Assembly: GCF_004360145.1 (NCBI RefSeq) | Contig: NZ_SAIT01000011.1 | Location: 1-64,000, forward strand | Origin: Aliiroseovarius marinus | Lineage (GTDB): Bacteria > Pseudomonadota > Alphaproteobacteria > Rhodobacterales > Rhodobacteraceae | Direction: 5' to 3' | Length of the DNA: 64,000 bases | Part shown: positions 6,332 through 40,469 of the stretch, in pieces | Layout: each line of letters begins with the position of its first letter | Position numbering within the stretch: position 1 is the first letter of the stretch | The notes under the pieces: generated by a model | Told to the model about the DNA's origin: nothing | Seen by the model: the letters and a program-made list of their open reading frames with translations, nothing else | Databases searched by the model: none | Translations under genes and position numbers: made by a program

Positions 6332-7846
6332 ATGATCGAAGGACTTCTGATCGGCCTTAGCGCCGCATTCTCAATCCAAAACCTTCTGATGGTGATTGCG
6401 GGCTGTCTGATCGGCACGTTCATTGGCATGTTGCCCGGTTTGGGCCCGATGTCGATCATCGCCATTATGATCCCGGTTGCCATCACCATCGGGGATCCGT
6501 CGGCTGCCATCATCCTGTTGGCCGGTGTGTACTACGGCGCCATTTTCGGCGGCTCGACCTCGTCCATCCTGCTGAACGCACCGGGCGTGGCTGGGACCGT
6601 GGCATCCAGTTTTGATGGCTATCCGATGGCCCGAAAAGGGCAGGCCGGTAAGGCGCTGACCATTGCGGCCATCGCCTCGTTCGCGGGGGGCAGCATCGGG
6701 GCGCTGCTTCTGATGATCTTTGCCCCCATGCTGTCGACTGTCGCCCTGCTGTTCCACTCGGCCGAGTACTTCGCCCTGATGGTCGTAGGCCTGTCGGCCA
6801 TCGCGGCCTTCGCGGGGACCGGCAACGTGGGTAAGGCGATCCTGATGACCTTGCTGGGGCTTGTCATGGCCACAGTGGGCGAAGGTGCCTTGTTCAACAT
6901 GCCGCGGTTCACCATGGGGCTGATGGATCTGCAGTCGGGTTTCAGTTTCATTACGCTGGCGATGGCGATGTTCGCTTTGCCCGAGGCGCTGTTTCTGGTC
7001 CTGAATCCGAAACGGTCGGCCCAAGGTGCTAGCGGCAAGATCGAGAACCTGCGCATCACCAAAGAAGAGGGACGCAAGATCGCGCCGGTCATTGGCCGTC
7101 AGTCGATTCAAGGTTTCTTCATCGGGGTGCTGCCGGGAGCGGGGGCGACCATCGCATCATTCCTTGGCTATGCGGTTGAACGCAACATCGCGACCAAGGA
7201 AGAGCAGGAGGAGTTCGGCAAGGGTGCCATCAAGGGTCTAGCCGCGCCGGAAACCGCCAACAACGCGGCCTGCACCGGCTCGTTCGTGCCGCTTCTGACG
7301 TTGGGCATTCCCGGTTCGGGCACGACGGCGATCCTGCTGGGTGCGCTAATTGCGCTGAACGTCACGCCCGGTCCGCGCCTGATGATCGACGAGCCGCAGA
7401 TTTTCTGGGCGGTCATCATCTCGATGTATATCGGCAACCTTGTGCTGCTGATCCTGAACCTGCCGCTGATCCCCTATATCGCCAAGGTTCTGGCCATTCC
7501 GCGTAACTATCTGATTCCGTTCATCCTCTTCTTCACGCTGATGGGCAGCTATATCGGACAGAACAACGCGACCGAGTTGTTGATCCTTGTGGGCATGGGC
7601 ATCTGTGCGACGGTTCTGAAGTTTGCGGATTACCCGCTGGCGCCGCTGCTGATCGGCTTCATTCTGGGTGGGATGTTGGAGGACAACTTCTCGCGCTCGA
7701 TGCAGCTGTATGATGGGATCGGGTTCATCTTTGACCGTCCGATGACCCTAGGCTTGCTGGTGATCGCGGTTCTGCTGGTGGTCATCCCAAGCTACCGCGC
7801 CCGCCGTGCGAAAGCGCGTCAGGAAGGCGTGGCAGAAGGGGATTGA
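6332..7846 (+). CDS. tctA: tripartite tricarboxylate transporter large permease
   Basis: 504 aa polytopic permease, usual family length. It contains the two Gly-rich signature motifs of TctA (GTFIGMLPGLGPM near residue 30, and GVLPGAGATIASFLGYAVER near 265), the segment GSTSSILLNAPGVAGTVASSFDGYP, and the segment GIPGSGTTAILLGAL. It drives secondary, ion-coupled uptake of the ligand handed over by TctC. It lies 11 nt after tctB and 32 nt before the AbrB-family gene, so all three are likely co-transcribed. The substrate (citrate, tartrate, or a xenobiotic carboxylate) cannot be read from sequence. Confidence 0.95.
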   Translation: MIEGLLIGLSAAFSIQNLLMVIAGCLIGTFIGMLPGLGPMSIIAIMIPVAITIGDPSAAIILLAGVYYGAIFGGSTSSILLNAPGVAGTVASSFDGYPMARKGQAGKALTIAAIASFAGGSIGALLLMIFAPMLSTVALLFHSAEYFALMVVGLSAIAAFAGTGNVGKAILMTLLGLVMATVGEGALFNMPRFTMGLMDLQSGFSFITLAMAMFALPEALFLVLNPKRSAQGASGKIENLRITKEEGRKIAPVIGRQSIQGFFIGVLPGAGATIASFLGYAVERNIATKEEQEEFGKGAIKGLAAPETANNAACTGSFVPLLTLGIPGSGTTAILLGALIALNVTPGPRLMIDEPQIFWAVIISMYIGNLVLLILNLPLIPYIAKVLAIPRNYLIPFILFFTLMGSYIGQNNATELLILVGMGICATVLKFADYPLAPLLIGFILGGMLEDNFSRSMQLYDGIGFIFDRPMTLGLLVIAVLLVVIPSYRARRAKARQEGVAEGD

Positions 7847-37604: not shown

Positions 37605-37702
37605 AGCAGCAATGTCAGACAATAGCCGCACTGCGTCAATTCTTGCTTTTTGATGTGCCACTTAACCTTTCCTTATGTGACGCGGCGTTTTATCTGTCGG
37701 TC

Positions 37703-38788
37703 ATGGCGAATTTGATCCAAACCTATGATGCCCTTGCCCAATCTGGCGAGATTACCCGCGACCCCGCACAAGAGGCCTGCCTGCCGGGCCTCGAAGACAT
37801 CCGCGAACATCTGGACGCCGCCCCCAAGCGCAAGCGGGGCATTCTGGGTGGGCTGTTTCATTCCAAACCCGAAGAGGTGCCGCAGGGGCTGTACCTGTGG
37901 GGCGGCGTTGGGCGTGGCAAGTCAATGTTGATGGACCTGTTTGTCGACAGTCTGGAAAACACCGCCGCCCGCCGCGTGCATTTCCACGCCTTCATGCAAG
38001 AGGTGCACGAGGGCATGGCCGAGGCGCGCAAGACCGGCGTGGATGACCCGCTGGCGCCGGTCGCTGCGAAGATCGCCGCCGATGTAAAGCTTTTTGCTTT
38101 TGACGAAATGCAAATCACCGACATCACCGATGCGATGATTGTCGGGCGATTGTTCGAAAAGCTGTTCGACGCGGGTGTGGTTGTTGTCACCACGTCGAAC
38201 CGCCACCCGGATGAACTGTATAAAGACGGGCTGAACCGCCAGTTGTTCCTGCCTTTCATAGCACTTCTGAAAGATCAGATGGTGGTGCACGAACTGGTCA
38301 GTCCGAACGACTATCGCCAAGATCGCCTGGCGGGCGAGCAGGTCTATTTCAGCCCCGCGAATGCGGAAGCACGGCAGGCGATTGATGCGCTGTGGAGGGA
38401 TTTGACCGGCGGGCAGGCCGAGCCCTTGGTGCTGACCGTCAAAGGGCGCGAGGTCGTGTTGCCCGCCTATCGCAACGGGGCCGCGCGGGCGCGGTTCCAT
38501 GATCTGTGCGGCGCGATGTTGGGGCCGGGTGACTATCTGACCGTCGCCAATGCGGTGAAGCTGTTGGTGCTGGAAGACATTCCGCGCCTGAGCCGTCAGA
38601 ACTTCAACGAGGCGAAGCGCTTCGTCACGCTGATCGACGCGCTTTATGAGGCGAAGGTGCGCCTGATCGCATCCGCTGCGGCCCTGCCCGAGATGCTCTA
38701 TGTCGAAGGCGAAGGTTCGTTCGAGTTTGAACGCACGGCCAGTCGCTTGCGCGAGATGCAGGACAAAGACTGGGGAATGGACGACTAG
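37703..38788 (+). CDS. zapE: cell division protein ZapE (AFG1-like ATPase)
   Basis: 361 aa. Walker A is GGVGRGKSM (residues 67-75), Walker B is VKLFAFDEMQITDI, a sensor follows in VVTTSNRHPDELYKDGLNR, and the arginine-finger region is RLSRQNFNEAKRFVTLIDALYE. The AFG1/ZapE family acts on FtsZ rings in E. coli and on mitochondrial protein quality control. ATG 37703 starts the conserved N-terminus (IQTYDALAQSGEI); its Shine-Dalgarno is weak. Downstream lies the unusual 406-bp gap. Confidence 0.92.
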   Translation: MANLIQTYDALAQSGEITRDPAQEACLPGLEDIREHLDAAPKRKRGILGGLFHSKPEEVPQGLYLWGGVGRGKSMLMDLFVDSLENTAARRVHFHAFMQEVHEGMAEARKTGVDDPLAPVAAKIAADVKLFAFDEMQITDITDAMIVGRLFEKLFDAGVVVVTTSNRHPDELYKDGLNRQLFLPFIALLKDQMVVHELVSPNDYRQDRLAGEQVYFSPANAEARQAIDALWRDLTGGQAEPLVLTVKGREVVLPAYRNGAARARFHDLCGAMLGPGDYLTVANAVKLLVLEDIPRLSRQNFNEAKRFVTLIDALYEAKVRLIASAAALPEMLYVEGEGSFEFERTASRLREMQDKDWGMDD

Positions 38789-39194
38789 CGGCGGGACGAG
38801 GGGCCGCGCATCTGCGACCCCTCAGGTTTGCACCTGCCTGCCTAACTCGGATGGGGTCGGAATACCCCGAAGCGCCGCTGGGTTAGGCAAAGAGTCACGA
38901 TGTTAGTTTGTGATCACAAAGGCATAGGTAATTCTTGCCCCGTGCGAATCACTTTGCCGCCCCGGCGAAATGTACTGCTCGATAAGCCGTCCACTTATTG
39001 CGGACTTTGCCTATAGAATACTCTATTTATAGGCGCTAACCCCTTAAACCGTCAACGTTTTACATGGAATCACTGCCGATTCGCGAATCGGGTAAAAAAG
39101 TGATTCTTTTCGGGGGTTTGACTCGTGTTCTTGATGCGGTTGGGCGTGACCGTGCAAAATTAATTTTGTGATCACGCCCGTGAAATTCGCCGTC
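38789..39194. other. structured, AT-rich non-coding gap between convergent zapE and folC
   Basis: No plausible ORF. The following inverted repeats can be seen. TGCCTAAC (38839-38846) pairs with GTTAGGCA (38882-38889), enclosing GGGGT/ACCCC. TTTGTGATCACAAA is at 38907-38920. GCCTATA/TATAGGC is at 39009-39034. GAATCACT (39067-39074) pairs with AGTGATTC (39099-39106) around the 16-bp palindrome CCGATTCGCGAATCGG (39076-39091). GGGCGTGA/TCACGCCC (39142-39179) surrounds CAAAATTAATTTTG. Seven GANTC sites occur, five of them within 39067-39124. Candidates are an sRNA, a protein-loading or methylation-controlled site, or a replication-related locus. Confidence 0.7.
39142..39179 (-). terminator. large stem-loop just past folC
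   Basis: GGGCGTGA and TCACGCCC enclose the perfect palindrome CAAAATTAATTTTG (39155-39168). It lies 16 bp beyond the folC stop and could terminate the accD-folC transcript, though there is no T-run. Confidence 0.4.
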
Positions 39195-40469
39195 TTAGCC
39201 GTTTTCGCGCAGGATTGCGCCCGCCAGATACAAGGACCCGCAAATCAGGATGCGCGACTGCGGATCGGTTTGCGTGATGGCGGCAATCGCGGCCTCGACC
39301 GAGTCTGCGGTGCGCGCGGTCATCCCGACCTTCGCGGCTTCCTCTGCCGTGGTTTCGGCAGGTAGGGTGTTGGGCTCGTCCGGGATGGACACGGCGGTCA
39401 GGCTATCGGCCACACCCGCCAACGGGCGCAGATATCCCGCGATGTCCTTGGTGTTCAGCATCCCGCAGACCAGATGAGTGGGGCGCTTGGGCAGATCTGC
39501 CAGTACGCCTGCCAGCATCTCGCCCGCGGCGGGGTTGTGACCGCCATCCAGCCACAGCTCGGCGTCGCCTGCTGCGTCGATCAGCGGGCCATTGCGCAAA
39601 CGCTGCATCCGCGCGGGCCATGTGACGTCGCGCATCGCGGCCTCGCAGGCGGCTTCGTCAAAGCCCAACACGCGCAGGGCAGCGATTGCGGCGCCAGCAT
39701 TTTCGATCTGGTGCGGGCCGATCAGGGCGGGTAGGGGCAGATCCAGCAGCCCGTTTTCGTCTTGGAAGATCAGCCGTCCACGCTCTTCCCAGAAATGCCA
39801 GTGCTGGCCGTGCACGAACAGGGGGCAGCCCAGCTTGGCGGCACGCGCCTCGATCACCTCAAGCGCTTCGTCTTTCTGCGGGCCAACCACGCAGGGCACA
39901 CCGCGTTTCAGGATGCCTGCTTTCTCGCCTGCAATCTCGGGCAGGGTTTCGCCCAGAAACTGCGTGTGGTCGATCGAGATCGGGGTGATCACGGTCAGCG
40001 CGGGTTTCTCGACGACGTTGGTCGCGTCCAGCCGACCGCCCAGCCCGGTTTCCAGCAAAGTGAAGTCGGCAGGCGTTTCGGCGAAGGCCATCAGCCCCGC
40101 GACGGTTGTGATCTCGAAATAGGTGATGTTTTCGCCGTTATTGGCAGCATAGCAGCGGTCCAGCACCTCACTCAGGGCGTCTTCGCTGATCAGCTCACCG
40201 GCCAGGCGGATGCGTTCGTGGAAGCGCGCGAGGTGCGGCGAAGTGTAGGCGTGCACGGCCTTGCCCGCGCCCTCAAGCCCCGCGCGGATCATCGCTTGGG
40301 TCGAGCCCTTGCCGTTCGTCCCTGCCAGATGAATGACCGCAGGCAGTTTGTCCTGCGGGTTGTCCACGGCCCCCAGCAGCCGCCAAACACGATCAAGCGT
40401 CAGGTCGATGATTTTCGGGTGCAGCGACATCATCCGGTCAAGGATGACGTCCGAGCCTTGGGCGCTCAC
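39195..40469 (-). CDS. folC: bifunctional dihydrofolate synthase / folylpolyglutamate synthase
   Basis: 424 aa Mur-ligase-like enzyme. The P-loop is [15 protein letters not shown], with [15 protein letters not shown] and [12 protein letters not shown] forming the nucleotide/folate site, then [22 protein letters not shown] and the ligand segment DGGHNPAAG. It adds glutamate to dihydropteroate and to folates. The start is GTG 40469, whose GTGA overlaps the accD stop, so it is coupled to accD, as is usual in alphaproteobacteria. Confidence 0.95.

Follow-up and report, generated by a model that had tools for sequence, protein, structure and literature searches.

The gap between zapE and folC in Aliiroseovarius marinus is probably the non-coding shell of a folC-linked operon that has lost its genes, and is probably transcribed as a structured RNA. 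The window analysed here is a stretch of 64 000 nucleotides from this species, in which zapE (37643–38788, plus strand) and folC (39195–40469, minus strand) converge on a gap at 38789–39194. In the reading that we favour, the ancestral operon, linked to folC, would have comprised a promoter, a 5′ leader, a gene for a secreted rhodanese-domain protein, a LysM-type gene and a 3′ hairpin. The coding genes would have been lost in most Aliiroseovarius and the regulatory and untranslated part would have survived. Minus-strand transcription of this part probably yields a structured non-coding RNA of about 220 nt, which would act as RNA. Timing of the promoter within the cell cycle would come from CcrM methylation of a GANTC cluster, read by GcrA with sigma70. 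The promoter would be repressed by an AkgR-like GntR/FCD regulator of TCA genes, bound to the two flanking GTGATCAC operators and perhaps forming a DNA loop of some 258 bp. What is unexpected is that the shell would have outlasted the proteins; its promoter, operators and RNA each belong to a known kind.

An earlier note on the window had pointed to the convergent flanks, to seven GANTC sites with five in 58 bp, to an excess of inverted repeats and to a GTGATCAC box at each end of the gap, and all of these were recovered. The GANTC sites start at 38892, 38946, 39067, 39078, 39085, 39102 and 39120. Dinucleotide shuffles of the gap give a mean of 1.27 sites, and 0 of 1000 reach seven. In a survey of 798 938 of the 3 133 413 bases of the A. 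marinus genome (about a quarter), with intergenic DNA crudely defined as ORF-free, GANTC occurs at 0.77 per kb overall and at 1.49 per kb in intergenic DNA; the latter rate therefore predicts about 0.6 sites in the gap, and the expectation of about 1.6 per 406 bp given in the note was too high. The gap ranks first among 314 intergenic stretches by GANTC number, which places its density above the intergenic average of the surveyed part. The second and third stretches (G000:C2:322355–322668 and C2:302424–302933) carry four sites each and might be further CcrM/GcrA promoters. The gap holds eight inverted repeats (perfect arms of 7 or more, spacer of at most 40), where 100 shuffles average 0.88 and never exceed four, and those named in the note sit where it had placed them. 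The two GTGATCAC copies lie at 38910–38917 and 39168–39175.

No Rfam family reaches its gathering score in the gap, where the best weak match has an E value of 1.8, and a known RNA family was ruled out as its identity on this basis. Elsewhere in the window, RF02646 (Ruegeria cis8 sRNA) matches at 7370–7497 on the minus strand with 119.4 bits. No account of the zapE–folC locus, or of an sRNA with folC and zapE, was found in the literature covered, which takes in few subscription journals and the accessible parts of PMC11514494, PMC7987155, PMC7471390, PMC3667746, PMC8632094 and PMC8959179.

On the minus strand, the gap can be laid out as a putative transcription unit behind folC, with a promoter, a leader and a 3′ hairpin. 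It begins with a putative upstream operator TTTGTGATCACG (39165–39176, no strand assigned), which matches TTGTGATCAC. The block of five GANTC sites (39067–39124, no strand assigned) comes next and precedes by 16 to 69 bp the −35 box of a predicted sigma70-type promoter, TTGACG-18-TATAAA (39026–39055, minus strand), whose 18-bp layout is shared behind folC in other genera. The note had held, wrongly on this reading, that no promoter is needed between convergent genes; this minus-strand promoter would be the heart of the region. The predicted 5′ leader (38975–39019, minus strand) has two stacked stems, then CGAGCAG, and is recognized by its conservation and by double changes in its stems. The site of the lost start codon is at 38950–38952 (minus strand): it reads GTG in the window, out of frame with the coding remnant, ATG in eight of nine sister species and TTG in the other one, and ATG in the intact rhodanese gene. 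A putative downstream operator TTTGTGATCACAAA (38907–38920, no strand assigned) follows, its centre 258 bp from that of the upstream operator. Next come GGCAGGCAGG (38833–38842, minus strand), also present in Shimia-type RNAs, and a GC hairpin GAGGGGTCGC..GCGGCCCCTC (38798–38823, minus strand) close behind the zapE stop, the presumed RNA end. Sequence comparison thus delimits a candidate non-coding RNA of about 220 nt at 38798–39019 on the minus strand. A scan of the gap with the consensus of E. coli found no promoter. A terminator scan of the gap found none either; the 3′ hairpin lacks a T run, and it could be kept as a terminator of zapE. At two loci (L195 and L206) the predicted RNA has GGGACAGGC close to its 5′ end, and a similar motif appears again further down.

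A search of 61 genomes at the DNA level recovers the gap, or just its core (about 38960–39120), at E below 1e-20 in 16 of the 21 genomes of the genus, A. marinus included, and in all 16 the element lies between convergent zapE and folC. Outside the genus these 61 genomes yield no match better than E 0.001; position, promoter layout and the 3′ motif are the grounds for homology there. The 16 genus mates without a rhodanese gene at the locus (gene-less, A. marinus included) carry seven GANTC sites per gap in five cases, five in two, four in eight and three in one. Conservation of the gap and its GANTC sites had been named in the note as a point to check by alignment: the gap is conserved in the genus, the sites at 39067 and 39102 are kept in 16 of 16, and the full set of seven belongs to only five of 16. 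Both GTGATCAC boxes are kept in these 16 genus mates, the upstream operator in 16 of 16 (in L016 as GTAATCAC), and a stretch near TACTGCTCGA(C/T)AAGCCGT is kept in all or nearly all.

The promoter is also found in other Rhodobacteraceae. After removal of three duplicates of genus loci from 80, there are 77 zapE loci, and 13 of them have it: they belong to Shimia, Cognatishimia, Pseudooceanicola, Pseudopelagicola and one further lineage. Their gaps carry three to seven GANTC sites, although the DNA does not match the window. The test demands at least two GANTC sites nearby, and so passes over L041, L042 and the like as well as rhodanese-type loci that have a single GANTC. Each of the 13 has the same minus-strand layout: TTGAC, an 18-bp spacer, a −10 box, then a GC-rich hairpin that ends 95–139 nt further on. 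Counted from the start of the −35 box, and with promoters chosen partly by GANTC number and −10 match, GANTC sites occur at −11 to −13 in 13 of 13 loci, at +6 in 10 of 13 and at +11 or +16 in 9 of 13. Ten loci of a covariance model, R1, give 9 of 10, 10 of 10 and 7 of 10 for the same positions, and the pooled figures are 22 of 23 loci for −11 to −13 and 20 of 23 for +6.

At E 0.01 the R1 model has matches in 63 of 394 family genomes. The nine best all adjoin folC, two of them being model members under other numbers (L178 as L083, L179 as L046), and folC is present in 14 of the 30 loci returned; those without folC align mostly at the hairpin end and are put down to chance. R1 finds no match in the A. 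marinus genome. The pattern TTGACYGATTCG-N12-TANNNT gives 23 matches, one each in 23 of the 394 family genomes (several shared with the R1 search), and its backwards control gives four. At 22 of the 23 loci folC lies within 1.5 kb, and zapE was for this reason dropped in favour of folC as the anchor of the element.

What stands behind this promoter differs between loci. At 10 of the 23 pattern loci it is an ORF for a secreted rhodanese-domain relative; the domain (PF00581) was confirmed for two of the ten proteins and for that of A. lamellibrachiae. A second, LysM-type gene follows the rhodanese gene at L041, at G019 and at the Lentibacter loci, and, weakly by NCBIfam, at L214. At two Lentibacter loci the LysM-type gene is followed by the GGCAGG version of GGCAGGCAGG and a hairpin, as in the gene-less RNAs. 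Within the genus, three genomes (G013, G007 and G019) have an open rhodanese gene at a locus with the same leader, and the G013 protein is identical to that of A. lamellibrachiae (L041). At these three loci the leader runs through a hairpin, CGAGCAGTAC and a G-rich stretch to ATG. In A. lamellibrachiae/G013 and G007 the downstream GTGATCAC forms the codons VIT of the rhodanese signal peptide; G019 has the gene and lacks both GTGATCAC boxes at the locus. A. subalbicans (L042) has a broken rhodanese copy and a decayed second GTGATCAC box. Nine gene-less species (L015–L023) still have the start codon, as TTG in L022, with a remnant of 37–43 codons (52 in L022). In the window clade of seven the start codon has gone from its old place, and L014 of this clade has another ATG upstream, with a 43-codon frame running through the operator. 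Comparison shows the promoter and leader to be homologous to those of the intact rhodanese gene, and the loci to form a series from intact gene through broken gene and remnant to no start codon. G001 and G010 were left out of this assignment of states. A distant rhodanese paralogue is encoded elsewhere in 21 of 21 genus genomes; G004 and G018 of the window clade (L234 and L235) have an extra rhodanese gene elsewhere, 48 per cent identical to that of A. lamellibrachiae and with no GTGATCAC in the 330 bases upstream.

In a FolC tree, A. subalbicans is outermost in the genus, followed by an unresolved fork of the gene-bearing (three), gene-less (seven) and gene-less (nine) groups, which leaves one or two gene losses in the genus. 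Over the family, the five state labels need 14 changes and the gene-less label alone 11, at least three of them forced by starred branches, on this quick, unrooted tree of 103 rows with states partly set by hand. The hand-set states are gene-less promoter for L010, L011, L013 and L181, LysM only for L115 and broken gene for L042; the state of L016 was set in a script. Loss of the rhodanese gene in Aliiroseovarius is well supported, because remnants exist; outside the genus, gain and loss cannot be told apart. The FolC of L047, labelled Nocardioides marinus, groups with Leisingera, and this entry is probably mislabelled or contaminated.

The operator motif points to the control of carbon metabolism. 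There are 19 matches to TTGTGATCAC on both strands of the A. marinus genome, against 0 for the backwards control, and they occupy 13 places, eight inside long ORFs and two in the zapE–folC gap. One place is ahead of a GntR/FCD gene, if that gene starts at the ATG behind the box; the gene is near one for a pyridine nucleotide-disulphide oxidoreductase (read as lpd). A pair of matches precedes an ATP-grasp/CoA-ligase gene (read as sucC), and a single one precedes genes read by eye as sdhCDA. The motif is thus common to the gene of the putative regulator and to TCA genes, a distribution that fits a candidate AkgR-like TCA regulator. The AkgR regulon of Rhodobacter sphaeroides was reportedly described by Imam in 2015, and the GntR/FCD gene and the GTGATCAC boxes may be counterparts of its regulator and motif. 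In all 16 gene-less species the two boxes are separated by 255–258 bp, and in A. lamellibrachiae by 260 bp, a constancy that suggests a loop around the promoter.

With the spacing so constant, the locus might work as DNA: promoter and operator pair would be a regulatory or titration site for GcrA, CcrM or the GntR/FCD protein, and the RNA a by-product. The 255–258-bp spacing in the gene-less species would suit this, and the leader dyads are DNA palindromes too, but two observations lead us to regard it as unlikely. The leader, which contains neither operator nor GANTC, is as conserved as the promoter, and a helix of the nine gene-less species, with arms 73 columns apart, is kept by double changes as it would be in RNA. 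This helix (62–71/145–155), which RNAalifold itself picks in the nine species, joins the old Shine–Dalgarno region to a downstream GAGACCGCCC. In it, 96.7 per cent of cells pair, against 42–70 per cent when it is slid, and none of 500 shuffles and no slid version attains its covariation score. The exchanges among the nine species are A-U/G-C 5 : 4 and C-G/U-A 5 : 4; the count of double-changed pairs, reached by 24 of 500 shuffles, is unremarkable. In the stacked stems of the leader, 93.0 per cent of cells pair across 19 species and the covariation score is reached by 0 of 500 shuffles, a score that kinship among species inflates; the double-changed pairs are ordinary there (279 of 500 shuffles reach their count). 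A pair-type measure is ordinary as well, being reached by 463 and 500 of 500 shuffles. The fold of the window clade is stable, with an unfavourable RNAalifold covariation term (+1.56) and both sides changed in three of 74 pairs. As to the covariation that the note had asked to be looked for, a helix is kept by compensatory changes in the nine-species clade; the fold of the window's own clade has no such support. Of the roles suggested there, the intergenic sRNA gains from the promoter layout, the conserved leader, the covarying helix of the sister clade and the 3′ hairpin, with the amendment that it seems to have descended from an mRNA.

Selection on the shell after the loss can be judged from mean pairwise identities, given here for the window clade of seven and the nine-species clade, respectively. 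They are 0.94 and 0.94 for the leader, 0.95 and 0.82 for the promoter, 0.89 and 0.79 for the GANTC block, 0.95 and 0.90 for the upstream operator, 0.88 and 0.95 for the downstream operator, and 0.97 and 0.89 for the 3′ hairpin zone (38798–38848). Fourfold sites of zapE and folC are at 0.60 and 0.52, the coding remnant at 0.72 and 0.57, the upstream zone at 0.77 and 0.55 and the zone between at 0.75 and 0.51. In the window clade, where such non-coding zones are at 0.72–0.77, the contrast with the leader is therefore smaller than against fourfold sites. Promoter, leader, operators and 3′ hairpin are, by this comparison, conserved while the coding remnant drifts.

These values bear on the proposal that the gene died recently and that promoter, leader and operators are functionless remnants that have yet to decay. 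A broken gene and short ORF remnants do exist in the genus, as this would require, but leader, promoter and operators at 0.82–0.95 within clades, against 0.52–0.60 at fourfold sites and 0.57–0.72 in the remnant, and a gene-less state common to clades of seven and nine species, make it quite improbable. Still less credible is a small peptide made from the remnant ORF. It could draw on the ORFs that follow the old start, with 37–43 codons in eight of nine species and 52, from TTG, in L022, and on the 43-codon ATG frame of L014; however, differences in the remnant of the nine species fall at 0.52, 0.47 and 0.45 by codon position, a flat distribution without codon periodicity and hence no visible coding constraint, the ORF ends differ, and the window has only a 12-codon GTG ORF at the old start. 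A replication origin, terminus or segregation site, also raised in the note, was rejected on GC skew and has next to no likelihood: GANTC and palindromes in the gap and hemE about 49 kb away on the same contig (about 53–55 kb in three relatives) would agree with it, but the skew of the A. marinus contig has no switch at 39 kb, that of G011, coarsely sampled, is positive in nine of the 11 samples taken as far as 1.6 Mb, then negative in eight of nine from 1.77 to 3.05 Mb, so that its switches are not at the locus (2.82 Mb), and elsewhere such GANTC-rich gaps are promoters. One 12-kb sample of the G011 chromosome (L274, G011:C1:2880001–2892000) is at 33 per cent GC, the other 19 being at 55–60 per cent.

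The operon shell, transcribed as a structured RNA, thus remains our preferred reading of the gap. Within one genus it would supply a series from a working gene through a broken gene to a conserved gene-less RNA, which makes the birth of a regulatory RNA from an mRNA testable. A promoter with regularly placed GANTC sites is useful for learning how GcrA reads methylated sites outside Caulobacter, and the locus may tie carbon control to the cell cycle in marine Rhodobacteraceae. More tentatively, and with considerable doubt, it might exemplify a recurrent route to regulatory RNAs, in which an operon drops its protein genes and keeps a methylation-read promoter, a structured leader and a 3′ end, the Aliiroseovarius RNA joining CcrM/GcrA-marked replication to the TCA state through an AkgR-like loop.

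The closest known promoters are the GcrA/CcrM-dependent sigma70 promoters of Caulobacter, such as ctrAP1 and mipZ. The A. marinus genome encodes GcrA (PF07750 at C6:162817) and a RAMA-domain protein (PF18755 at C1:595882, a 376-aa frame), read as CcrM from that domain alone, so that both partners would be available. According to PMC7987155, GcrA peaks in Caulobacter are defined within −40 to +40, and YGAKTCK is proposed there as the GcrA-activating motif, with no such extended motif in Brevundimonas. On hemimethylated ctrAP1, GcrA covers the −35 box and the adjacent GANTC (PMC3667746). The promoters of the other genera resemble these: their GANTC touches the −35 box in TTGAC[CT]GATTCG, as on ctrAP1, and their sites fit YGAKTCK. 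The Aliiroseovarius promoter differs in having GANTC only upstream, TTGAC(C/T)GATTCG being absent from the window and the spacer GANTC of other genera from Aliiroseovarius; the nearest site is 16 bp upstream of the −35 box and about 50 bp upstream of the predicted start. The folC-linked promoter also differs from the Caulobacter ones in preceding a non-coding RNA or a rhodanese gene. A methylation-timed switch, one of the earlier suggestions, is plausible, GcrA and the RAMA-domain protein being encoded and GANTC keeping fixed offsets in and around the promoter in other genera.

Among RNAs, CcnA is a cell-cycle ncRNA of Caulobacter that lies in the origin and is presumably activated by CtrA (PMC8959179). 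The two would be alike as short ncRNA genes of an alphaproteobacterium with links to cell-cycle regulators; the predicted RNA of the gap, by contrast, lies between folC and zapE. The AkgR regulon would be similar in having a GntR-family gene with sites at TCA-cycle genes; a difference is that the operators in the gap are 258 bp apart and those at sucC about 22 bp. Small RNAs derived from the untranslated regions of mRNAs are a known kind, and the candidate RNA shares with them ends inherited from an mRNA. It differs from them in that the coding genes between those ends have gone, so that the RNA would no longer be a by-product of an mRNA.
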